Assembly: GCA_903882805.1 (NCBI GenBank)
Contig: CAIRYK010000015.1
Span: 1 to 64,000, forward strand
Origin: an uncultured Bacteroidota bacterium
Lineage (GTDB): Bacteria > Bacteroidota > Bacteroidia > Chitinophagales > Chitinophagaceae
Reading direction: 5' to 3'
Length of the DNA: 64,000 bases
The translations under genes were made by a program, and so were the position numbers. The notes under the pieces were generated by a model. It was not told where the DNA came from. It searched no databases and worked only from the letters and a program-made list of their open reading frames with translations. Position 1 is the stretch's first letter, and every line of letters begins with the position of its first letter. Positions 44,519-58,903 of the stretch are shown here, in pieces.

Positions 44519-47500
44519 TCATTGTCCTACCTCAAGCACAATTTTCTCTGTGCATTTTCCGTGCGATGTAATGGCAGTGAAGAAATAAACGCCCGCCGGC
44601 GCCACCAGTTGCACTTGTAGCGGCACATTGGTAGTATGGGTATATTTCTCCAGCTTCTGCCCAATTATGTTGGTTACAATAATCTTCACATCCTCCTGGT
44701 AAGGCGAATAAATATTCACATTTACTCTGCCCGCTCTTGCAGGGTTAGGGTAAATCGCTATTTCGCCAATACCTGAGCAACCCACCGTGGGTGGATTAGT
44801 AACAGGCGGCGGTGGTGGCGGCGGCGGCGGTGTAGCTGTGTCGCAAGCTGCGGCTGTCTTCACCAATAAAGGCAAATATGCGACTGCAGATCCGCAACTA
44901 TTGGTAACAGTATAAAACACCGTATCAGCTCCCGATCCAAGCGCGATTACTTTTCCATCCGCAATGGTAATGATACCCGCAGCGGTTGCGCTCCATACCC
45001 CACCCGGCTGTGATGCCGTTAGCAACGACGATGTATCGCCCGGACATAAACTGTCGGCGCCGCTAATAGTTCCGGCTACCGGCAATGGTAATATCTCAAT
45101 GGCATGAGTTGCATTCGCAATGCCGCAAACATTGGTTACAGTATAAATAATAGTATCGCGCCCTGCGCTGAGACCCATAACACTACCTAAAAGCGATATA
45201 GACGCATTGGCATTGGTTACCGTCCAAACCCCGCCGGCAACCGTGGCAGTAGCTATAGTTGTTGCGCCAATACAAACTGTGGTATCGCAAATTACTGCCC
45301 CCGCATCGGGCAACGGATTGATGGTAATGACCTTACTTGCCGAGGCTATACCGCATGTATTGGCTACCGCATAAACAATAGTGTCGTTTCCTGGGGCTAC
45401 CCCTGTAACAACGCCGAGAGCAGAAATTGTAGCGCGAGCATTTGTAGCGCTCCATGTTCCGCCTGGTATAGTGTTGTTCAGCGATATTGTGGCGCCCTGG
45501 CACACCTCGTTGGGGCCAGTAATAGCGCTTGCATTGGGTAGCGCGCCTACTGTAATTGTCTTGGTAGCCGTAGCAGTTCCGCAGCCATTTATCACCAGAT
45601 AAATAATTGTATCCACGCCTACCGACGCACCAGTTACGACACCGCCGCCTGAGATGGAGGCACGGGCATTGGTAACGCCCCATGCGCCGCCAGCGCCTGT
45701 AGTAGTCATAGCTACCGTTTGCCCCACACAAACCTGCGAAGGCCCGGTAATAACCCCTGCAAATGGCAAAGGATTGACTGTTAACGACCGCACCACGCTA
45801 TTTGTGCCGCATAGGTTGCTAAAGGTATAAGTAATAAGTGTGCTACCTGCCGAAACGCCATTTACCACACCAGTAGTAGAACCTATAGTAGCAATCGCCG
45901 GTGTGCTACTGGTCCATACACCGCCGCGCAACGTGTCTGCGAGCGTAATAGTTGCCCCTACGCACAAAGCGCTATCGCCAACAATAGCCGTAGGCAATGG
46001 ATTGACCGCAATTGTTTTTGTTCGGTAGCAGCCCGATGGAACAGTATAAGTAATTATTGCCGTACCTGTTGCCACCCCGCTTACCAGCCCCCATGTGGCA
46101 TCTATGGTAGCTGCGCCCGCTATTGTCCATGATCCACCAATTGTCGAAGACGAGTAGGGCACGCTACCGCCAATACAAATGTAGTTGGGACCTGTAATGG
46201 CAGCCGGTAATGGCAATACGCTTATTGTTTTAGACACAAGACATCCGGTAGGCATTGTGTAAGTTACTGTTCCTGTTCCCGGAGCAAAGCCGGTTACTAC
46301 GCCATCAGGCGACACAGATACATATACGCTCGACCATCGGCCAACTGGGGTATCAATACTATACAGGCGCACCGATGGCCCTCCGGCGCAAACAATACTA
46401 TCGCCTGTTATTGCACCCGGTAATGGATTGACCTCGAATGTAACCATGGCCGGACATCCACCTCGAGTATAGCTAATTACAGTAAGCCCTGTGGTATTGC
46501 CCGTTACAACGCCAGTGGTAAGCCCGACAGATGCAATACCGGGATCGGAGCTGCTCCATGTGCCGCCTGGAGCAGAGTTACGCAACACCGTCGTTAGTCC
46601 GATGCAAACACGCGGCGCGCCTGTAATAGACGGTGGTACAGGATTAACCGTTACCGTAGCCATTACCCTGCAGCCCGTAGGCATTGCATAGGTGATGATT
46701 GCTGTACCGAGCGCCACACCTGTAACTACTCCTGTTGTTATTACCACACTGGCCACTGCCGGCCTGCTGCTTGTCCATGTTCCGCCGGCAAGTGTATTGC
46801 CCAACGTAGTAGTCAGTCCGAAACAGGCTGCCAGATTACCGGTGATGGCTGCCGGCTGAGGATTAACGGTATAGGTAGCCGTAATAGCGCACCCCGTATG
46901 AATGTAACTTAGGGTAGCCGTACCTGCGGCAATAGCAGAAACGATACCTGTACTCCAGTCGGCGTACGCAATGGCGGGGTTGCCGCTTAGCCATGTGCCG
47001 CCCGGCAGCGAGTTATAGAGCGTTGTGGCTGCGCCTTCGCAAGCCTGCATTACGCCTGTAATGGCCGGGGGTATTCGCACTACGGTCACATCCATTGTAG
47101 TAATGCACCCTGTTGGTAATGTGTAAGTTATGGTTGCGCTGCCAGCAAGTATACCGCTCACTATTCCGCTTGTAGGGTCTATCGTGGCATAGGTAGTTGC
47201 GCTGCTGCTCCAGACGCCCCCAGGTGTAATATCAGTAAGCGCTATTGTGCTGCCTACGCACACCTGCGTGGGCCCGGCTATAGGCGCCGGTAGCGGTTGT
47301 ACTGTAGCCGTAGTATAAGCCGGGCAACCGGCGCGGGTATATGTAATAACTACTGTACCAGCAGCTATGCCGCTGACGATACCGGTAGATATGCCAATAG
47401 TAGCAATTGCCGGATCGCTACTCTCCCATGTTCCTCCGCCCGACATGGTGGATAGCGTTGTGGTCAACCCCTGACACACTGCCGCTACGCCCGTTATCGG

Positions 47501-50500
47501 TAGCGGCACATCCATTACTTCTATAGTAGTAGTTGCGTAGCACCCGGTAGGTAGCGTGTAGCTTATTATGGCTGTACCTGCAATGACGCCGGTAACAAAA
47601 CCAGTAGCCGGATGTATGGTTGCAATTGCAGGGCTGCCGCTGGTCCAGGAGCCGCCCGATGGGCCAGACAAAGTTGTTGTATACCCTACACAAATCCGAC
47701 TAATACCTGCAATAGGCGCAGGCACAGGATTTACGGTAACGGTGGTAAAAGCGCTGCAGCCTGTTGGTAGTAAGTAAGTAATAATAGCTGTGCCAAATGC
47801 AACGCCCGACACAACGCCCGTAGTGCCGCCAACAGTGGCGACTGCGGTATTGCTACTTGTAAACGAACCGCCCGGCACAATATCTGCCAAGGCAGTAGTA
47901 GCGCCCTCGCACACTACTGTGATGCCGGTTATGGGCGCAATAGGGTTGATGGTAACCGTTTTTAAAGCCAGACAACCGGGGGGCAACGAATAGGTAATTA
48001 CGGCTGTGCCGGCTGTAACGCCCGCTACAACGCCCGAGGTTATGCCCACAGGAGCTACCGCCGTATTACTACTGCTCCACGTACCGCCGGGCGTCAAATC
48101 GCTCAGAGGCAACAACTGCCCCATACATATTGCAGAGGAGCCAGAAAGGGCTAATGGTATTGGACTGACAGTAATGGATGTAGATACCATACAGCCGGTG
48201 CCTAATGAATAGGTAATAAGCGCTGTTCCCGCCGTTACGCCATATACTAAACCTGTTAATGACCCAACTGTAGCCACAGCAGTATTGCTGCTGGTCCACA
48301 ATCCTCCACCGGGATCAGTGAGCAATGTAGTCGAACCCACGCATACATAAGGCAAACCGCTAATAGGCGGCGGCACGGAATTTACTGACACAGATGTAGT
48401 AGCTATACATCCCGACGATGTAGTATAGGTAACCATTGCCGTTCCCGGACTAATACCGGTAACAATGCCCGACACCGAACCTATAGTGGCGATGCCCGCA
48501 AAGCCGGGCGCGCTCCAACGGCCGCCGGGTGTGGCGTTGAACAATGATGTGGTATAGCCTGTGCACATAGCAGTAACGCCCGTAATTGGCGAAACCGGGT
48601 TGACTGTAACTGTTCTCGTTGCCGTATTCGAACAGCCTCGCGCATTGGTGACCGTAAGCGTAACAGTATTTACCCCGGCCAGCGTATAAGTATACGAAGG
48701 AGCGGAAAGTGTGCTCGTGGCGCCGCTTGCAAACGTCCATAACCAACCTGTAACCGGCGAAGATAAACTCGACGAAGTATCTCGGCAGCTAATAGCGTTG
48801 TTTTGACAAACCGGCGATGGAGTAACCACAAAACCAGCTCTCACTGTATCTACCTTTATAGTATCCAGTCCGAGGCTATAACTTGTGCAACCGCTGGTAT
48901 CTGTAAGTATTAGCTTAGGCAGGTACGAACCCGACCGCATGTAGCGATGGGTGATCGTATCGAGCATACTGGATGTAGAGGTAATACCATCGCTAAAATC
49001 CCACACGATACTCGTAACATGGCTAAGGAACGCGCTAAAATGCACCGACAGCGGCGAACAGCCCCCGGTTGGCGTGTAGGTAAATGCGCCAGTATACCCA
49101 AAAATACTCGCGCGACGATATGCTGTGTCTTTGCAACCAAAAGTATTAGTGGCAACCAGGCGAATATTGTACAATGATGGACTTAAATAACTTGCACTTG
49201 GATTGGGAGCAATTGAAAACGTGCCATCTCCAAAAGCCCATAAATAAGAAATCGCGCCTACTGAAGCATTGGTAAACGTAATATTCAGCGGCGGACATAC
49301 TGCAAATGAATCACTCATTGTAAAGCCGGCTGTAGGCAGAGGGTTCACCACCATTGTCCGGCGCGATGTGTCCGATACGCAGCCCATGGCGTCAGTAACC
49401 ACCATTTTCAAATTATACGTACCTGCCGCAGCATATGCATGGTCGGGCGATAAATCGGTGGAGGTAAAGCCATCGCCGAACGACCAATAGGCGCTAACGG
49501 CAGTTGGCGAAGTATTGGTAAAATGGGTACTGGCTCGCGCACATACACTGGTTCCAGTAACCGTAAAAGATACTACTGGCTTAAAAACAGAAATGAGCGA
49601 AGTTCGGTTCAGGGTATCGCGACAGCCATAGTCATTAGTGATAATCTCACGAACTGTAAATGTGCCTGCTCCTGTGTAAGTGTGCGTGTTTGTGGGCACG
49701 CCGAACGTTGCAGTATCTCCGTTGCCAAAATTCCAAAAAAACCGGGTAAGCGTTGGTCCAGGCACATCGGTCGAGATGTCGGTAAACACAGCATTCAAGG
49801 GTGCGCAGCCTGTAGCTGGCGACACCGTGAAGTTGGCGATTGGTTTGGATACTATTATAGAATTACTATTGGAGGTATCAAAACAACCATGACTATCCGT
49901 TATGATCAATTGTACAAAATGCGTGCCCCTAACGCGATAGTTAAAGATAAATCTGTTGTTTAAACTATCGCGCAAAACACCATCAACATACCATTTATAC
50001 CTTATTGCCGACAACCCGGTAACGACAGAATAAAAAGTATCGAGCTGATCGCGGCATATCGTTGAGTCGCGCGTGTAGATACGCACGGTGGGCCGCGCAA
50101 GGCTTACCAACGATGTGGTAGTATCGCGACAACCGCTTCGGGTGTTATAGGTTGCCAATTTTACATTATAATTGGATAACGTGGGGAAGTAATGCGTGGG
50201 ATTAGCCACTGTTGAGGAATCTCCATCACCGAATATCCACACATGCCTGTCATCGCCCAACGACAGATTAGTAAAAACAACTCCATTAGAGGGGATGCAT
50301 GTGTAGTTGAGGTGCATTACCGCATTCGGAGAATCTACGACAAGCGGTAAACTGAAAGCAGCGCTCGGACAATCGAAGTGCGAAATAGTTAGCGAGGGGT
50401 TGAACAATCCGGGCGTAGCGTAAACGTGGCCTGGACTAGGCAATGTAGAAGAATAGGTATCGCCAAAATCCCAATATACATCTTCGTAAACACCAGAGGA

Positions 50501-52192
50501 ACTATTAATAAACGTCACCATCCTGTCAGCACAAATACGGGAAGGACTCATAGTAAAAGATGCAGTTGGGGGGCTACCTACCTTAATCACAACATTTTCT
50601 GTGCCACTACAGCCGTTGGCTGTTGTAATTCTACAAGATGCAAGGTAAACACCCTCGGCGGTATAAGTATGCGACGGGCTTGGTAATGTGCTCGTTGGCG
50701 AGCCATCTCCAAAATTCCAGAGATAAGATGTGGCCGCATATGGATAAGTAAAGGACAAATAATTGATGGGAAAGAAAAATACATAGTGGCCATTAATAGC
50801 ATCATAAACGTTTGTAGAAGACAAGGAAACTGAAAACGTTGTAGTGAGCGGCACACAACCCGACCGAGCTGTAGCAGTAGGAGTAATGGTTAAATTGGGA
50901 ATGGTATCTACTTTGTGAATTGTATCCTTGCAACCTGCAGGATTGGTTACTATCATATCCACATAGTCTACCACCTGTCTGGGCCATAAATGTGTAGCAG
51001 TAAATCCGGAGCCGACAGCGGTGTCGCCAAAACGCCAGGCCACTGTACTGCCCGAGGGAACTGAAGAAGTGTAGGTTAATGTAATAGGCGGAGGACACGG
51101 ATTGGCTGGTGAAATAGTAAATGTACCGCCAGAGCGTCCATCGGTTATAACAATAGATCTAATTACAGTATCGTAGCAAGAACCATCGTAAACGACTAAT
51201 CGCACATTATAGGTTCCTGTTGCGGCATAAGTATGAAATGGCGTCTCCAAAGAAGACGTTCCTCCATCGCCAAAATTCCATGCGCTGGAAATATGCGTAG
51301 TGCTGGTATTGCCAAACGCAACAGGAATAAATACACAGGCTGTAGAGGGGAATACACTGACAGCGCACAATCCATTTACGTTAATATAGCCTGGCCGAAC
51401 CATACTATCTTTGCAACCATTGACATCGGTAACTACCAGAGAAGCATTGTAAGACCCCGATGCTGTATAAGTATGTGTCGGCGCCAGAGCGGTGGAAATA
51501 AGCCCATCGCCAAACCGCCACAAATAATTTAGCGGGCCCGACCCGGAACTGGTGTTGGTAAAGACAGCAGTTGCCGGAGCCCGGCAAAAAAACGTTTGCG
51601 AGGCGCTAAAGCCGGAAGTGGGCGGAGTGAACACATGTATGTAAGAACTGCGCCCTAACGAGCTCATACACCCTTTACTGTTTGTTGCAAAAAGAGTAAC
51701 ATTATAGTCGCCTGGCGAAACATAATTGTAAACCGGCGAAGCGGCGGTACTCGAGCCTCCGTCTCCAAAGTTCCAGTTATAAGTCAATCCTCCCCAAGCG
51801 CCGGGAACAGTAGTACTTGTATAGGTTAAGTTTGCACCGGGACACACGTTGGTAGGGCTTGCGCTAAATGCTACTGTGGGCGCAGCATAGGTAGTAATTA
51901 CCATAGACGCAACGCTGGTCAAAACGCCATTGGTGGCCGTAAGCGTAACAGTATAAGAACGAACAGAGATATAGCTGCCAGATGCATCTGTTAGCGTAGT
52001 GGGCGGAGAACCGTTGCCCAAATCCCAAGAATAACTGGTGGCGCCAGTAGATGTATTTGTAAAACGAACGATAAGGGGGGAACATCCTGCAGTATCGCTG
52101 GCAGTAAAACTTGCAGTTACCTGTGCATTTGATGTAAAAAAGGACAGGCAGAGAGATAGGATAAATAAGCTCTTTAAGAATTTAATAGGCAT
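44519..52192 (-). CDS. Giant T9SS-secreted adhesin-like protein with PKD and Big_2-type repeats
   Basis: The 2557-residue protein has a signal peptide ending FFTSNAQ, then about fourteen PKD-type domains, most carrying a WxFGDG strand motif and paired Cys (about residues 25-1320). Seventeen Big_2-like units of about 70 residues follow (about 1330-2430) with the pattern C-x-G, GG-x-W, A-x-A-T-x-x, G-V-V-x-G, G-T-A-x-I-T-Y and TGC. A nine-proline linker and a C-terminal T9SS sorting domain (IAIYPNPARAGRVNV to the end) complete it. There are no catalytic motifs. Such architectures serve as surface adhesins, gliding adhesins or structural fibres, but which applies is not visible. It is a single gene on the minus strand with no partner genes next to it. 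Confidence 0.9.
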   Translation of the reverse strand: MPIKFLKSLFILSLCLSFFTSNAQVTASFTASDTAGCSPLIVRFTNTSTGATSYSWDLGNGSPPTTLTDASGSYISVRSYTVTLTATNGVLTSVASMVITTYAAPTVAFSASPTNVCPGANLTYTSTTVPGAWGGLTYNWNFGDGGSSTAASPVYNYVSPGDYNVTLFATNSKGCMSSLGRSSYIHVFTPPTSGFSASQTFFCRAPATAVFTNTSSGSGPLNYLWRFGDGLISTALAPTHTYTASGSYNASLVVTDVNGCKDSMVRPGYINVNGLCAVSVFPSTACVFIPVAFGNTSTTHISSAWNFGDGGTSSLETPFHTYAATGTYNVRLVVYDGSCYDTVIRSIVITDGRSGGTFTISPANPCPPPITLTYTSSVPSGSTVAWRFGDTAVGSGFTATHLWPRQVVDYVDMIVTNPAGCKDTIHKVDTIPNLTITPTATARSGCVPLTTTFSVSLSSTNVYDAINGHYVFFFPINYLSFTYPYAATSYLWNFGDGSPTSTLPSPSHTYTAEGVYLASCRITTANGCSGTENVVIKVGSPPTASFTMSPSRICADRMVTFINSSSGVYEDVYWDFGDTYSSTLPSPGHVYATPGLFNPSLTISHFDCPSAAFSLPLVVDSPNAVMHLNYTCIPSNGVVFTNLSLGDDRHVWIFGDGDSSTVANPTHYFPTLSNYNVKLATYNTRSGCRDTTTSLVSLARPTVRIYTRDSTICRDQLDTFYSVVTGLSAIRYKWYVDGVLRDSLNNRFIFNYRVRGTHFVQLIITDSHGCFDTSNSNSIIVSKPIANFTVSPATGCAPLNAVFTDISTDVPGPTLTRFFWNFGNGDTATFGVPTNTHTYTGAGTFTVREIITNDYGCRDTLNRTSLISVFKPVVSFTVTGTSVCARASTHFTNTSPTAVSAYWSFGDGFTSTDLSPDHAYAAAGTYNLKMVVTDAMGCVSDTSRRTMVVNPLPTAGFTMSDSFAVCPPLNITFTNASVGAISYLWAFGDGTFSIAPNPSASYLSPSLYNIRLVATNTFGCKDTAYRRASIFGYTGAFTYTPTGGCSPLSVHFSAFLSHVTSIVWDFSDGITSTSSMLDTITHRYMRSGSYLPKLILTDTSGCTSYSLGLDTIKVDTVRAGFVVTPSPVCQNNAISCRDTSSSLSSPVTGWLWTFASGATSTLSAPSYTYTLAGVNTVTLTVTNARGCSNTATRTVTVNPVSPITGVTAMCTGYTTSLFNATPGGRWSAPGFAGIATIGSVSGIVTGISPGTAMVTYTTSSGCIATTSVSVNSVPPPISGLPYVCVGSTTLLTDPGGGLWTSSNTAVATVGSLTGLVYGVTAGTALITYSLGTGCMVSTSITVSPIPLALSGSSAICMGQLLPLSDLTPGGTWSSSNTAVAPVGITSGVVAGVTAGTAVITYSLPPGCLALKTVTINPIAPITGITVVCEGATTALADIVPGGSFTSSNTAVATVGGTTGVVSGVAFGTAIITYLLPTGCSAFTTVTVNPVPAPIAGISRICVGYTTTLSGPSGGSWTSGSPAIATIHPATGFVTGVIAGTAIISYTLPTGCYATTTIEVMDVPLPITGVAAVCQGLTTTLSTMSGGGTWESSDPAIATIGISTGIVSGIAAGTVVITYTRAGCPAYTTATVQPLPAPIAGPTQVCVGSTIALTDITPGGVWSSSATTYATIDPTSGIVSGILAGSATITYTLPTGCITTMDVTVVRIPPAITGVMQACEGAATTLYNSLPGGTWLSGNPAIAYADWSTGIVSAIAAGTATLSYIHTGCAITATYTVNPQPAAITGNLAACFGLTTTLGNTLAGGTWTSSRPAVASVVITTGVVTGVALGTAIITYAMPTGCRVMATVTVNPVPPSITGAPRVCIGLTTVLRNSAPGGTWSSSDPGIASVGLTTGVVTGNTTGLTVISYTRGGCPAMVTFEVNPLPGAITGDSIVCAGGPSVRLYSIDTPVGRWSSVYVSVSPDGVVTGFAPGTGTVTYTMPTGCLVSKTISVLPLPAAITGPNYICIGGSVPYSSSTIGGSWTIAGAATIDATWGLVSGVATGTAIITYTVPSGCYRTKTIAVNPLPTAIVGDSALCVGATITLADTLRGGVWTSSTPAIATIGSTTGVVNGVSAGSTLITYTFSNLCGTNSVVRSLTVNPLPFAGVITGPSQVCVGQTVAMTTTGAGGAWGVTNARASISGGGVVTGASVGVDTIIYLVINGCGTATATKTITVGALPNASAITGPNEVCQGATISLNNTIPGGTWSATNARATISALGVVTGVAPGNDTIVYAVANTCGIASASKVITINPLPDAGAVICDTTVCIGATTIATATVAGGVWTVTNANASISLLGSVMGLSAGRDTIIYTVTNVCGIANATHAIEILPLPVAGTISGADSLCPGDTSSLLTASQPGGVWSATAAGIITIADGKVIALGSGADTVFYTVTNSCGSAVAYLPLLVKTAAACDTATPPPPPPPPPVTNPPTVGCSGIGEIAIYPNPARAGRVNVNIYSPYQEDVKIIVTNIIGQKLEKYTHTTNVPLQVQLVAPAGVYFFTAITSHGKCTEKIVLEVGQ
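44805..44831 (-). repeat. Nine-proline codon tract
   Basis: GGC/GGT triplets in a row encode nine prolines between the last Big_2 unit and the sorting domain. It is a short microsatellite-like tract and a likely EF-P-dependent stall site. Confidence 0.8.
44880..48590 (-). repeat. Seventeen tandem Big_2-like coding repeats
   Basis: Each unit spans about 205-225 bp and shares the block encoding GG-x-W followed by GVVxGVxxGTAxITY. Units are divergent but regular, so the stretch is a long imperfect coding repeat. Boundaries are approximate. Confidence 0.8.
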
Positions 52193-52726: not shown

Positions 52727-53608
52727 CTAATTTTCGGTAATTCTGATTTCTACCCTACGGTTTTTGTCGGCATCTTCCTCTGTACGCTCAAACTGAATTA
52801 TGGGCTTACGCTTACCAAAGCCCACATATTTCAGGCGTTTACTGTCTATACCTTTTCTTACAAGAAAGTTATATATTTCTTTGGCTCTGTTTACAGACAA
52901 TGTAGCCTCGTAAGTGTCGATATCCAATGCATCCGGAGCATCAGATATGCAACATACATGCCCCTCTATGCTAATTTTCAGCTTCGGATTGTCGCGCAGC
53001 GCTACATATAGCTTCTCCAGCGTCTCTGCCGATTCGGGCTTTATCACATGCCTGTCGGGAGGAAAATATACATTTTTCAGCAAAAACAGCGAACCGGGCT
53101 TAAGTCGCTTCATGTCGTCAAAATTTCCCAATGCCACTTTTATCAGCGTATCCTTTCCAGGTCTGCCCCCCGGTTTTGTATTGTCTGTTACAGGTGGTTT
53201 TGCTCGCGTTCGGTTGTTGACTACAATATCCACTCTGCGGTCGGTAGGCGAACCGTCGCTCTTGGCAACGCCCCGAAGCTCTACTTCACCCTTACCCAAG
53301 CACATTTTAATATCATTTGCATTTATCCCATATTTCACCAGATAGTCGCGAACATTCTTAGCCCGCTGCATTGATAAATTCTTATTGAAACCCTCTGTGC
53401 CCAGATAATCTGCATAACCTACAATTACTACGTTGCTACCATTTATTATCTTGTCGTTATAAATAAGTAAATCTATCTTCTTTTCAGCCTTTGCGTTCAA
53501 CGACGGCACCCCAAGGTCGAAATACAACTTAAATGTATCTCTTACGCGCTGTGCAAATACAGGCGAGAGCACAAATAAGAAAATTAACGACAAAAGAGTT
53601 TTACGCAT
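52727..53608 (-). CDS. Protein with two tandem OmpA C-terminal (peptidoglycan-binding) domains
   Basis: The 293-residue exported protein has a signal peptide (MRKTLLSLIFLFVLSPVFAQ). Domain 1 (about 25-132) shows IVGYADYLGTEGFNKNLSMQRAKNVRDYL and DRRVDIVV. After a Pro/Gly linker, domain 2 (about 178-293) shows IEGHVCC, LSVNRAKEIYNFL and NRRVEIRI. Both keep the Asp/Arg pattern that binds diaminopimelate, so the protein could bridge two peptidoglycan stems. It has no beta-barrel and no lipobox, so it would be periplasmic, unlike classical OmpA. Confidence 0.85.
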   Translation of the reverse strand: MRKTLLSLIFLFVLSPVFAQRVRDTFKLYFDLGVPSLNAKAEKKIDLLIYNDKIINGSNVVIVGYADYLGTEGFNKNLSMQRAKNVRDYLVKYGINANDIKMCLGKGEVELRGVAKSDGSPTDRRVDIVVNNRTRAKPPVTDNTKPGGRPGKDTLIKVALGNFDDMKRLKPGSLFLLKNVYFPPDRHVIKPESAETLEKLYVALRDNPKLKISIEGHVCCISDAPDALDIDTYEATLSVNRAKEIYNFLVRKGIDSKRLKYVGFGKRKPIIQFERTEEDADKNRRVEIRITEN

Positions 53609-55082: not shown

Positions 55083-55211
55083 AACAAAGGAGCGTTAGCG
55101 CACTCCGGTAAACTAACCATTTTCGGTTAGCCACTACCTGAATTACCGTTTCGTCGGCGTCTATCAGACCTATCGCTGTTTCCTTTTTTATACGCAATAC
55201 CATAAAAAGAA

Positions 55212-55241
55212 AGAACCTAAAAGCGCACACTTTTAGGTTCT
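55212..55241. terminator. Terminator between convergent yhhQ and the beta-barrel fusion gene
   Basis: A 12-bp perfect stem (AGAACCTAAAAG at 55212-55223, complement at 55230-55241) with a 6-nt loop. T-rich bases follow on the minus strand, so it mainly ends the gene at 55274-58162. Confidence 0.8.
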
Positions 55242-55273
55242 CTTACTACTTATATATTACTCAACTAAACCAT

Positions 55274-58162
55274 CTATTTATTCTCTTTATTTCCGCCTAA
55301 ACGGTAACCGAAGGATATTTGGAAAGATGGATTTTTATACAACTCATTCGATATTGACTTGCCGCCTGTTGTCTGCGCATTATCCCATACGTTTTGTACA
55401 GAGCGGAAATCGAACGATACATTTGGCCCAGCCTGAAACGATGCGCCAAACAAATAACCTACGCCAAAGCGAGCGTCAAAATCTGCTGCTTTTAGTTTTG
55501 GCTGATTGTCTGTGCCTATAGCAGATACAACAACCGGATCAACTGTTGTAGGCGAAGCGGCTGCGCCTGTATTCACTGCAAAATTGTACGATAAGTTACC
55601 ACCGCCGTAGAAATTGAAGTTACCTGCTGTAAACCTTAAGGCTACCGGCATTTCTAAACTGTGCAACGTAGCAAAACTGTACGAGTTTGTTTGCAATTGC
55701 TTAGTATAGCCGCCTGCGCCATTGGCAGTGTAGTTATAGTAATCGTCGTTCATCGCATAATCGTTATTAATGCGATTGAAATACCTTAACTCTACCATCA
55801 CATTCCAGTTAGGATCAAAGATGATATTGCCGGTGATACCGAAATGGAATCCTTTGAAATTGGCAGGGCCAAAGAACGTACCGTTGATACCTGCTATCAA
55901 ACCCGGAGCAAACTGAATAGCGCCAACTTTTGTTTTGATGTCATTGAACGCAGCGCTCAAATTCTCGAGCGACTGCGATGTACTCGCCGATGTTTCTGAT
56001 GGCATCTCCTTTATACTACCCGACACTGTTTTGCTGGTAGATATTGTAGATGGCGTAGGAACTAATTTGTTAATACCGGACTGCGCATTGTTGCTGCCTG
56101 CAGCTAATACCGAACCTGATTTACGAGCGTTTGCTGCTGGGTCTGCTTCAGCGCTAATACCAAACTCCTGCGTAAGGGTTTCGCGCGAAATGGTGTCCAT
56201 ATTCAAATATCCGGCATTGGGCGAGGTGCGCACGTATTGTTGTAAAATGGTGAGGCGTTCTATAACACGTTTTCCACGGGTCTGGCCTTTCGTATCTACA
56301 TCATTACCATTAGCTCCGCTATTACCAGTCGGCTTAGCGCCGCCGGGAATTGTTCCGCCCGCAACAGGTTTACCAACCACAGGCATTGTTTTAGCAGCGC
56401 CAGCAGATGAAGAAAGGACATTGGGCTTAACCATGCTACCTGCGTTGTTAGCAGTTGCGCCGCCCGTTGGGAATGCTATCGTTTTTGCTGCAGGAGCGCC
56501 TGCCCCGCCGTTGGCCGCAATTGCTTTACCCGCAACAGGCAATCTGTTCGTTATAGATTTACTTCTGGTCGTTCCTCCGGCAGTGTTGTTGCCAGTTGGC
56601 TTCACCGCCGCAGGCGTTGCGCTTCCTGCTATTGCGTTGTCGGCAATAGTTTCTGGAGCCTCCGCTGCCGTGCCAGAATTGTTTATAGATTTCAATTTGC
56701 TATTCAGCGCGCGCAATCTCAATTTTGCTTCATTGCGTTTGTTGTTTATTTGGGCGGTTCTTGCCGCTGTCAAGCGTTGATTCTCTTCCGCTAATTTATT
56801 ATTGCGCGTTGTTGCTTCGTCAGCTGGTTTTACCGCCACTGTTACCGGAGTCTTTACACTCGTAGCGTTATCTGTTCCTGGCAACGTTGGCGTAGTAGTA
56901 TTCGCTTTTTGCGTAGCAGCGCCCACCGCTGCCCCTTGTGTAGGCAATGTAGCCTTTGTAGTTACAGTTTTTGTTGTTGTAAGCGCATTTGTTCCGTGTT
57001 TACCCGCTACAACCTTGTTTTTGTTTGTCGCAACTTTGGTATCGTTGGTGGTCTTAACTGCTGTTGTTACAGCATTACCCGGAGCATTAGCAACTGGCGC
57101 AGAAGCGCTCAGTACTTGCAGTCCAGAGCTATTTTTGTTACTGCCTGCCTTCGGAGCCTCATTAGTTGTGGCTTGCGTACCTGCAGTACCCATTGTTTGG
57201 GCGTTGCCAGGAGCGTTTTTAGTTTCAACTCTTCCAGCGGATTTCGCAATATTGCCGCGATTGTGCCGAAGATTATTACCATTTACCTTAGGGTTGTTAG
57301 CTGCAATTGCGGCTCCCGCAATATTGGTATTGGTATTGCCATTCTTGCTTGCAGTCACGCCCTTATTGGCATTCTTTGCTTCGTGGGACGGGCCTTGTTC
57401 AATAGGCTTATTAACACCTGTGCTTGTTACAGCCGGGGCTTTTACGTTATTTGAAGTAACTGCGTCGGCTGTACCGGCAGCCAATTTACTGTTGTTTGAA
57501 GCGATACTGCTTGTTGCGCCAACAGGTGTTGCAATATCATCAGCATGCTTATTGGTTGCAATAGGCTTCGTTTGATTGCTATTGGCAACGACAGGGTTAT
57601 TGTCTTGTGCCGCGATTTTATCTTCTTTTATTGCATCGGCCTTTGTATTGTTGGCCGCCAATGTATTAGCGGCTGTATTATTGATGGTTTTGCGTTGGCT
57701 GTGTTTGTTACCAGTGGTATTGTGTTTTGTAGCGGGTGAAGTAGTTGTTGAAGAAACATTGTTATTGCTTTCGCTGGCGGGCGAAGTAGTATTTTCAGAC
57801 AACTCATTGGCGGCTAAATGATTGTCTGTATTATGATTTGGCGCTGATGTAGTTACACCCGCATCGTGCATCGCATCATTTTCGGCTATTGCACCATCGG
57901 CCATTGCCGGATGCACATCGCCAACAGACCGTCGAACGAACGAATTAACTTCGTATCCGCCAACGCTCAATCCTGCAAGCAATGCGCCCACGGCCACAAC
58001 CCCAAGCATTCGCTTCCAGTAAATGCCTGCAGGTTTATCCTGAGGCATTTCCTTATCAAGCAAATCCTTCATTTGCAACCAAGAGCCCGCCCGCTCTCGC
58101 TCTTCACCTCCGCCTAATCGCTGCCTTACCAGGTCATCGATATTCACAAAATTTTTATCCAT
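55274..58162 (-). CDS. Anti-sigma-like head, membrane helix, long low-complexity linker and outer-membrane beta-barrel in one protein
   Basis: The 962-residue protein follows an ECF sigma gene by 57 bp. Residues 1 to about 50 are a short charged cytosolic domain with a W-x-x-M-x-x-LLD-like motif (SWLQMKDLLDKEMP), as in Bacteroidota anti-sigma heads. One membrane helix follows at about 52-70. Residues about 75-745 are dominated by Asn, Thr, Ala, Lys, Gly and Pro with few hydrophobic clusters, so they should be disordered and long enough to cross the periplasm. Residues 747-962 form an outer-membrane beta-barrel (GLIAGINGTFFG, alternating strands such as WNVMVELRYF and FNFYGGGNLSYNF, and a terminal SFQISFGYRL strand). 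I infer a one-protein link between the outer membrane and the sigma factor. Function unproven. Confidence 0.85.
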   Translation of the reverse strand: MDKNFVNIDDLVRQRLGGGEERERAGSWLQMKDLLDKEMPQDKPAGIYWKRMLGVVAVGALLAGLSVGGYEVNSFVRRSVGDVHPAMADGAIAENDAMHDAGVTTSAPNHNTDNHLAANELSENTTSPASESNNNVSSTTTSPATKHNTTGNKHSQRKTINNTAANTLAANNTKADAIKEDKIAAQDNNPVVANSNQTKPIATNKHADDIATPVGATSSIASNNSKLAAGTADAVTSNNVKAPAVTSTGVNKPIEQGPSHEAKNANKGVTASKNGNTNTNIAGAAIAANNPKVNGNNLRHNRGNIAKSAGRVETKNAPGNAQTMGTAGTQATTNEAPKAGSNKNSSGLQVLSASAPVANAPGNAVTTAVKTTNDTKVATNKNKVVAGKHGTNALTTTKTVTTKATLPTQGAAVGAATQKANTTTPTLPGTDNATSVKTPVTVAVKPADEATTRNNKLAEENQRLTAARTAQINNKRNEAKLRLRALNSKLKSINNSGTAAEAPETIADNAIAGSATPAAVKPTGNNTAGGTTRSKSITNRLPVAGKAIAANGGAGAPAAKTIAFPTGGATANNAGSMVKPNVLSSSAGAAKTMPVVGKPVAGGTIPGGAKPTGNSGANGNDVDTKGQTRGKRVIERLTILQQYVRTSPNAGYLNMDTISRETLTQEFGISAEADPAANARKSGSVLAAGSNNAQSGINKLVPTPSTISTSKTVSGSIKEMPSETSASTSQSLENLSAAFNDIKTKVGAIQFAPGLIAGINGTFFGPANFKGFHFGITGNIIFDPNWNVMVELRYFNRINNDYAMNDDYYNYTANGAGGYTKQLQTNSYSFATLHSLEMPVALRFTAGNFNFYGGGNLSYNFAVNTGAAASPTTVDPVVVSAIGTDNQPKLKAADFDARFGVGYLFGASFQAGPNVSFDFRSVQNVWDNAQTTGGKSISNELYKNPSFQISFGYRLGGNKENK

Positions 58163-58219
58163 TTGGATAAATTTATATTTTTAACAATGTTTTTCTTTCA
58201 CTCTTGCCGCCTACCAAAC

Positions 58220-58795
58220 TTAAATTTTGAAATGCAGTTCCAGTCTTTCAATTTTTTCTTTCAATACTCGTCGCCCTTCCGATAAATGCCACTTTGACGT
58301 CCCTTCGCTGATTCCTAATAAATTGCCTATTTCTTTGTGTGTAAATCCTTCCATAACGTACATGTTGAACACCGTTCGTGTAGCGTCGGGCAAGGATTGC
58401 ACCAACTTTAATAATTGGTCGTAATACAATTTATCTGCATGATCATGGTGCACATGCTGGTCTTTATCTACCAACATTATCTGATCAGCGTATTTAGCGT
58501 GCTGTTTTACATAATCGGCCACAGCATGAAATATTATCTTTCTCAGCCACCCCTCAAAAGAACCCTGAAAATTGTATTGTTTTATCTTCTGAAATGCCCT
58601 TAAATATCCGTTGTTGATAACTTCTTCTGCCTGCTCGTCGTGATCTATATATCGTTTTACCACAGCCATCATTCTGGGGTAAAATAAATGGTATAACTTT
58701 TCCTGGGCACCGCGTTCATTGCGTATGCAACCTTGAATGAGTTGTTCCAACTCACTGGCATGGCCGGGAACAGTATATGCCAAAGCTATAGACAA
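58220..58795 (-). CDS. ECF-type RNA polymerase sigma factor
   Basis: The 191-residue protein has sigma region 2 (about 25-95): AQEKLYHLFYPRMMAVVKRYIDHDEQAEEVI and the F-x-GWLRKI block. Sigma region 4 (about 130-185) shows LPDATRTVFNMYVMEGFTHKEIGNLLGISEGTSKWHL. It should direct RNA polymerase to promoters controlled by the envelope signal seen by the next gene. The start appears to be TTG at 58795: an in-frame TAA is three codons upstream and the first internal Met is inside region 2. It is first in the operon with the beta-barrel fusion. Confidence 0.93.
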   Translation of the reverse strand: MSIALAYTVPGHASELEQLIQGCIRNERGAQEKLYHLFYPRMMAVVKRYIDHDEQAEEVINNGYLRAFQKIKQYNFQGSFEGWLRKIIFHAVADYVKQHAKYADQIMLVDKDQHVHHDHADKLYYDQLLKLVQSLPDATRTVFNMYVMEGFTHKEIGNLLGISEGTSKWHLSEGRRVLKEKIERLELHFKI

Positions 58796-58903
58796 GTATA
58801 TTGGTTATTAATAAGATACACGATGATAGACCGCGGCATTTAATAAAAGGTTGGGTACGTTACTAAACGCAAACTAAAATTAACGGATTTGTGGGGTAAA
58901 AGC

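Follow-up and report, generated by a model that had tools for sequence, protein, structure and literature searches.

An uncultured Bacteroidota bacterium of the family Chitinophagaceae (assembly GCA_903882805.1) carries, within positions 1 to 64,000 of contig CAIRYK010000015.1, a stretch of 64,000 nucleotides (nt) called the window hereafter, a gene for an extracytoplasmic function (ECF) sigma factor that is followed by a gene for a single protein of 962 amino acids (aa). This fusion protein combines an anti-sigma-like head, one membrane helix, a very long linker and an outer-membrane β-barrel. Judged by architecture and kinship, the two genes are a Das/Dma-type pair; the design is known, and the linker in the window is the longest among those read. 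With a probability of about 0.77, an envelope signal would free the sigma factor, which would then transcribe its own operon and, in addition, genes for cargo of the type IX secretion system (T9SS), for a PorP/SprF protein and for a second ECF sigma factor. The evidence that carries this reading consists of the architecture of the fusion, its pairing with the sigma gene, the family kinship, the conservation of a promoter and the enrichment of a particular kind of target behind it.

Architecture and conservation of the sigma-fusion pair

The sigma gene (58220..58795, 191 aa) comes first and is separated by 57 nt from the fusion gene (55274..58162); both lie on the minus strand, exactly where an earlier note on this DNA, the original prediction, had placed their open reading frames (ORFs). 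The sigma gene has a TTG start whose position is conserved among orthologs, and its product is a two-domain ECF factor with Pfam Sigma70_r2 and r4_2 above cut-off. In the fusion (all parts likewise on the minus strand), residues 1-46 (58025..58162) form the anti-sigma-like head, predicted to be cytosolic, in which D9, W28 and L35 are invariant in a 14-row alignment. None of the anti-sigma domain models of Pfam and NCBIfam matches this head. The best hydrophobic 19-mer of the protein is residues 47-65 (57968..58024), with a modest mean Kyte-Doolittle value of 1.46, and a topology of one helix after a cytosolic head would follow from this hydropathy peak.

The linker, residues ~66-716 (56015..57967), is of low complexity, presumably disordered and placed in the periplasm by prediction. 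Counted over residues 67-716, it contains 17% Ala, 13% Thr and 12% Asn, consists mostly of A, T, N, G, S and K, and has a net charge of +28, 6 aromatic residues and no Cys; this composition is the basis for supposing disorder. The low complexity that the original prediction described is borne out, but its many repeats are not: Tandem Repeats Finder yields a single 17-bp array, and the linker as a tandem repeat array is rejected. On the plus strand, two long, hydrophobic, low-complexity ORFs run antisense across the linker (55935-56780 and 56802-57575); they are probably artefacts of its composition and not genes.

The whole 962-aa protein has no match in Pfam and NCBIfam. The barrel region alone, residues ~717-962 (55277..56014), matches OMP_b-brl_2 (PF13568) with 28.2 bits at a cut-off of 27, and in the PDB a profile built from the barrels of 11 orthologs hits neisserial Opa60 (E 6e-5), while NspA is not significant (E 0.17). 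Opa60 and NspA are both small outer-membrane barrels of eight strands. Single-sequence AlphaFold2 was uninformative for the barrel (predicted local distance difference test, pLDDT, 28) and for sigma and head together (pLDDT 42). The sequence architecture matches the predicted bridge, in which one protein links a barrel in the outer membrane with an anti-sigma-like head next to a sigma gene, and the sequence family (PF13568 over the cut-off) agrees with the barrel.

Protein and profile searches were confined to the window's phylum. Among 60 genomes of its family the fusion protein found matches in 13, its own genome included, mostly as separate head and barrel matches with the linker unmatched. 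A sigma ortholog (E <= 1e-50) is present in 65 of 294 same-family genomes, and 51 of these 65 loci were read, namely the window, 10 from the first search and 40 further ones; one further locus, L046, whose sigma is missing from its contig, stands outside the 51. A head-bearing ORF adjoins the sigma gene in 51/51 loci, so the pair that the original prediction singled out is conserved, and a barrel-profile match is found in 50, the sole locus without one being the most distant. Across these 50 rows PF13505 is found in 44 and PF13568 in 41. A 19-mer with a hydropathy of at least 1.2 stands at the helix site in 50 of the 51 pairs (none in L248). Linker length varies from 240 to 652 residues over the loci read, with a median of 314 and the window's as the longest. 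Compared with nine relatives, the head is identical at 27-40 of 45-46 positions, the linker at 25-35% and the barrel at 48-57%. Furthermore, a head profile matches 90 of 392 phylum genomes; the open frames among the matches listed are mostly ~180-335 and ~360-750 residues long, and the window's, with 968, is the longest.

Upstream of the sigma gene lies an ECF-type promoter, ACCCAAC-N18-GTCT (58828..58856, minus strand), which is a putative autoregulatory site of the sigma-fusion operon by its conservation upstream of orthologs. CCAAC-N18/19-GTCT is found upstream of sigma in 51/51 loci, the letters CCAAC and GTCT being partly search criteria. The form CCCAAC occurs in 47 of the 51 (N18 in 44, N19 in 3) and is preceded by A in 40 loci, and the remaining four loci have CCAAC with the same spacings. 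In 46/47 the base following GTCT, which was no search criterion, is T or A. GTCT begins 28-43 nt ahead of the sigma start, or 16 nt in one locus. Since this ECF-promoter layout stands before sigma in all loci, it implies that the pair is autoregulated through its own promoter. Within the window, the exact motif occurs only at the sigma gene itself, and allowing one mismatch gave no enrichment (2 matches vs 1.4 by chance, and 0). Directly 3' of the fusion gene there is a terminator-like hairpin (55210..55243, minus strand) with a 15-pair stem and a T-rich tail, by consensus match only; terminator-like sites after the fusion gene number 2 per 250 bases vs 0.2 in shuffles. The hairpin, together with the convergent orientation of the next gene, suggests a two-gene operon.

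Variants of this arrangement were also seen. In another clade of the family (L063, L074, L075, L077 and L081) the upstream block reads GCAACC and then TTGTA or similar, by eye, and it seems that promoter and sigma have changed in step there. Four loci (L059, L068, L070 and L079) have the same head-helix protein, of 225-263 aa and with no space for a barrel, after sigmas that group with the Dma type; the shorter rows of the head-profile search belong to the same barrel-less class, which lacks the outer-membrane anchor and may be ancestral or derived. The window's own genome has three more pairs of a sigma and a helix-linker ORF (L035, L036 and L037, of 524, 507 and 419 aa), whose ends look barrel-like by eye and have no Pfam match, and upstream of which no CCCAAC-GTCT motif was seen; with these three, the genome would probably encode four Dma-type pairs. 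On contig C75 of the same genome (L038:5715-8249), the genes after a further sigma paralog encode a one-helix protein of 246 aa and, separately, a possible outer-membrane protein of 401 aa, an arrangement that resembles the fusion split in two; Pfam has no match to either protein.

Kinship with known Das/Dma pairs

The original prediction knew of no described mechanism for such a fusion. The design has, however, been published, as the Dma family, with an N-terminal anti-sigma domain, a helix, a disordered tether and a C-terminal barrel beside an ECF21 sigma (PMC13088901), and as a Phocaeicola sigma/anti-sigma pair of the same design that was called 'unusual' (PMC9308784). By genetics, the sigma regulon is switched on when the anti-sigma is lost (PMC13088901, PMC9308784).

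A sigma profile made from the window's lineage and others was run on five named Bacteroides genomes, where 12 genes score 122-184 bits and the other ECF genes listed score below 93. All 12 of these top sigmas adjoin, or are fused to, a barrel protein that matches a Pfam OMP_b-brl family at E <= 0.01; the families are PF13568 or PF13505 in all 12, with 10 over the cut-off. Ten of the 12 sigma genes directly precede a helix-linker-barrel gene, although among those ten one frame is continuous with the sigma and partly unreadable, and one start was called too late. By contrast, the lower-scoring ECF genes have no barrel partner in 6 of the 6 cases read; their partners are short, FecR-like by eye, or none. 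Two sigmas of B. faecis (L198 and L199) are fused straight to helix, linker and barrel with no anti-sigma head visible, and would seem to require cleavage to act; such a direct fusion has been published for Dma3.

Five Bacteroides heads show, by eye, a W/L pattern like that of the window's head. A tree of 50 sigmas places 33 of the Dma type and 5 of the short type opposite 12 other ECFs with a support of 98/97. The label ECF21 for Dma-adjacent sigmas comes from PMC13088901; the sigma described here adjoins a head ORF (51/51) and groups with the Bacteroides Dma-adjacent sigmas (98/97). Identity with Dma1-3 of Bacteroides thetaiotaomicron, a species not named among the loci, would rest on architecture and kinship.

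The family is said to have been founded by Pardue in PNAS in 2024 with Dma1/Das1 and Dma2/Das2 of B. thetaiotaomicron, and the EcfO pair of Bacteroides fragilis reportedly goes back to Ndamukong in 2013. As described by Pardue 2026 (PMC13088901), Dma1/Das1 and Dma2/Das2 resemble the pair in the window in having an anti-sigma domain, one helix, a long disordered tether, a C-terminal barrel and an adjacent ECF sigma, and the window's sigma groups with their Bacteroides relatives against other ECFs. They differ in size, the fusion of the window having 962 aa vs 346-445 aa for those of the Bacteroides relatives read that are complete, and in that the window's promoter motif was not seen upstream of the latter. 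The regulon differs as well: T9SS cargo and PorP/SprF are predicted for the window's pair, while NigD1, polysaccharide utilization loci and vesiculation are given for B. thetaiotaomicron Dma (PMC13088901). The Phocaeicola vulgatus pair M0N98_03760-61 (Evans 2022, PMC9308784) is alike in its anti-sigma, which is predicted to span the periplasm and ends in an outer-membrane barrel, and in its sigma gene upstream. It differs in answering the membrane-targeting toxin BcpT, which raises the sigma gene 33-fold, and in lengthening the O-antigen, and no T9SS link was found in the available text of that paper (PMC9308784). The EcfO pair, termed similar to the Phocaeicola pair by Evans 2022, differs in responding to oxidative stress according to the same source (PMC9308784).

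Predicted targets of the promoter

The pattern ACCCAACN{17,19}GTCT was searched in 13 genomes of the window's genus, with the reversed pattern as control, and 91 distinct matches of 103 and 30 of 82 control matches were examined. Sixty of the 91 matches lie outside ORFs of 120 codons, compared with 3/30 in the control (Fisher p 5e-8), and a gene start follows within ~200 nt downstream in 54, compared with 2/30. Eleven of these 54 promoter-like places are the sigma gene itself. Among the 43 other targets, 38 have a signal-peptide-like start vs 75/179 background genes (p 1e-8), under a crude rule which, as the latter count shows, many background genes also pass.

Once a doubtful ORF of 94 aa and 12 duplicates by orthology (7 PorP/SprF, 3 and 1 lipoproteins and 1 ECF sigma) are set aside, 30 targets remain, of which two cargo proteins of ~1835 aa still look orthologous; the Fisher test on this set took 26/30 signal-peptide-like starts, where subtraction gives 27. 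Twelve cut-off target ORFs were extended to the stop before the tail scan. T9SS sorting tails are found in 18 of the 30, namely 10 of type B (one of these rows, L371, is a 127-aa ORF with doubtful start) and 8 of type A, and type B cargo numbers only 19-37 per genome. The rest of the 30 include one PorP/SprF gene, with eight orthologs before deduplication, and one ECF sigma gene. This second ECF sigma gene has CCCAAC-N18-GTCT 186-188 nt upstream in three genomes (L404/L423 on contig C9 of the window's own genome, L344 and L366), and a sigma cascade is possible.

In six genomes of five other genera a stricter pattern gave 28 matches vs 8 in the control. Twenty of the 28 are promoter-like, and four of those are the sigma itself. 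All 16 remaining targets have signal-peptide-like starts, and they comprise 13 T9SS cargo proteins, 2 PorP/SprF and 1 regulator-like protein; by NCBIfam, 8 of the 16 rows are of type A and 6 of type B, and the cargo rows come to 13 because a type A match below its cut-off falls on a row already counted for type B. In six family genomes without the sigma ortholog, hand-picked among complete ones, there are 4 matches vs 12 in the control (Fisher p 0.0005). The Dma of the window's type therefore probably controls a regulon of T9SS surface proteins.

Related control of T9SS genes is known or suggested in other systems. In PorXY-SigP of Porphyromonas gingivalis an ECF sigma likewise regulates both its own gene and T9SS genes, but a two-component system activates this sigma, the available text names no partner fused to a barrel, and the targets named are T9SS components (PMC4800418, PMC7712824); the window-type sigma is set apart by its barrel-fused partner in 50/51 loci. 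The SM6 promoters of Flavobacterium psychrophilum are likewise of ECF type and precede genes for T9SS components and for one sigma/anti-sigma pair; they differ in the -10 box CGT, in standing before machinery genes and in a responsible sigma that is unsettled (PMC9723704). ECF control of T9SS machinery is thus already known in P. gingivalis and suggested in F. psychrophilum. In the literature searched, which included PMC8999054 and PMC12045153 and did not cover the founding PNAS 2024 paper, neither a T9SS link for Dma pairs nor Dma targets outside Bacteroides and Phocaeicola were found; within that literature, the operon promoter and the predicted T9SS regulon of a Dma pair appear to be new.

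One T9SS-tailed protein lies in the window itself: a repeat-rich protein of 2557 aa with a type A sorting tail (TIGR04183) is encoded at 44519-52192 on the minus strand, adjoined by an OmpA-family gene (52727-53608).

Alternative readings, signal transmission and meaning

Several observations weigh against the preferred reading of this pair as a Das/Dma type with a T9SS regulon. In the genus the pattern has 103 matches and its reversed control 82, the signal lying in position and gene type, and one of the six genomes of other genera has no match. The PorP/SprF promoters of the genus mostly have a 19-nt spacer that contains a vegetative -7-like element, TAATATTTG, which makes the assignment of PorP/SprF weaker. 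The genomes compared as lacking the sigma were chosen by hand, and one of their 4 matches (L468) is promoter-like and precedes a secreted-looking protein. The window's own genome has fewer motif matches than matches to the reversed pattern (5 vs 10, or 7 vs 16 in relaxed form), and its promoter-like places are the sigma-fusion operon, a PorP/SprF gene and an ECF sigma gene, with no cargo gene among them; T9SS control in this genome would be indicated by the latter two genes only. Twelve stretches upstream of Bacteroides sigma genes, some of which have unsure starts, did not show the motif, so the T9SS regulon cannot be transferred to Bacteroides. Moreover, no branch of the tree separates the Dma-type sigmas alone, short type excluded, from all the others.

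Another ECF sigma could also read the same motif. The pair would then be an envelope-stress switch only and merely one target among those of a second sigma with the same -35 and -10 elements, as might be expected from the published Dma-type pairs, which respond to envelope stress or alter vesiculation (PMC9308784, PMC13088901), from the motif before a second ECF sigma gene, and from SigP, which controls T9SS genes with other partners (PMC4800418). Yet the core motif stands close before the window-type sigma in every locus read and is scarce in the six family genomes without it, while at the second ECF gene it lies far upstream and was seen in three genomes only, and we consider this explanation unlikely.

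The remaining two explanations concern the fusion protein itself. Surface signalling of the FecI-FecR-FecA type, with the barrel as a transporter partner fused to FecR, has a similar outline topology and the same adjacency of ECF sigma and anti-sigma-like genes, but Pfam finds neither FecR nor a TonB-dependent receptor in the 962-aa protein, and its barrel region of ~245 residues fits only the small OMP_b-brl/Opacity-type families and not a plugged receptor; this possibility is practically ruled out. That the head is no anti-sigma, and the fusion a co-transcribed tether between outer and inner membrane or a structural protein, might be supposed from the failure of anti-sigma models and from a linker much longer than required. 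It is, however, very improbable, because head and sigma remain paired in all 51 loci and in Bacteroides, three residues are invariant across the aligned heads, and, by published genetics, a Bacteroides sigma is restrained by a protein of like design.

In the preferred reading, in which the Das/Dma pair answers an envelope signal, the barrel would fix the fusion in the outer membrane and the helix would fix it in the inner one, the linker would run across the periplasm and the cell wall, and the head would hold the sigma factor at the inner membrane. A trigger at the outer membrane, which may be a ligand on the barrel, damage or a failure of barrel assembly, would loosen the grip of the head. 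The freed sigma would then read CCCAAC-N18-GTCT promoters, its own operon included, and, in the window's family of Bacteroidota, those of T9SS cargo, of a PorP/SprF gene and of a second ECF sigma gene. The original prediction proposed that the barrel could pass force or a conformational change to the head; transmission by force is doubtful: a flexible linker of ~650 residues has a contour of ~235 nm, and a worm-like-chain estimate with our own parameters gives a pull of ~1.8 pN at 25 nm vs ~9 pN for a comparison linker of 170 residues. Because a slack linker would pull with only ~2 pN, release by proteolysis, loss of an anchor or a barrel-assembly checkpoint is favoured over a taut pull, and the sigma-fused Bacteroides forms without a separate head would best fit proteolysis.

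Whether the pair is a dedicated switch of the T9SS surface proteome, with the barrel sensing the outer membrane or the secretion system and a loop leading back to surface-protein genes, is about an even chance. As the promoter signature is fixed across many genera, the regulon can be read from genomes, and the signature points to T9SS cargo, which bears on how Bacteroidota control the timing of surface dressing. The very long linker is a good case for studying signalling between membranes without a taut rod. If the reading is true, a loop would be closed from the cell surface to T9SS cargo, a PorP/SprF partner and a second ECF sigma by way of one protein that crosses both membranes.

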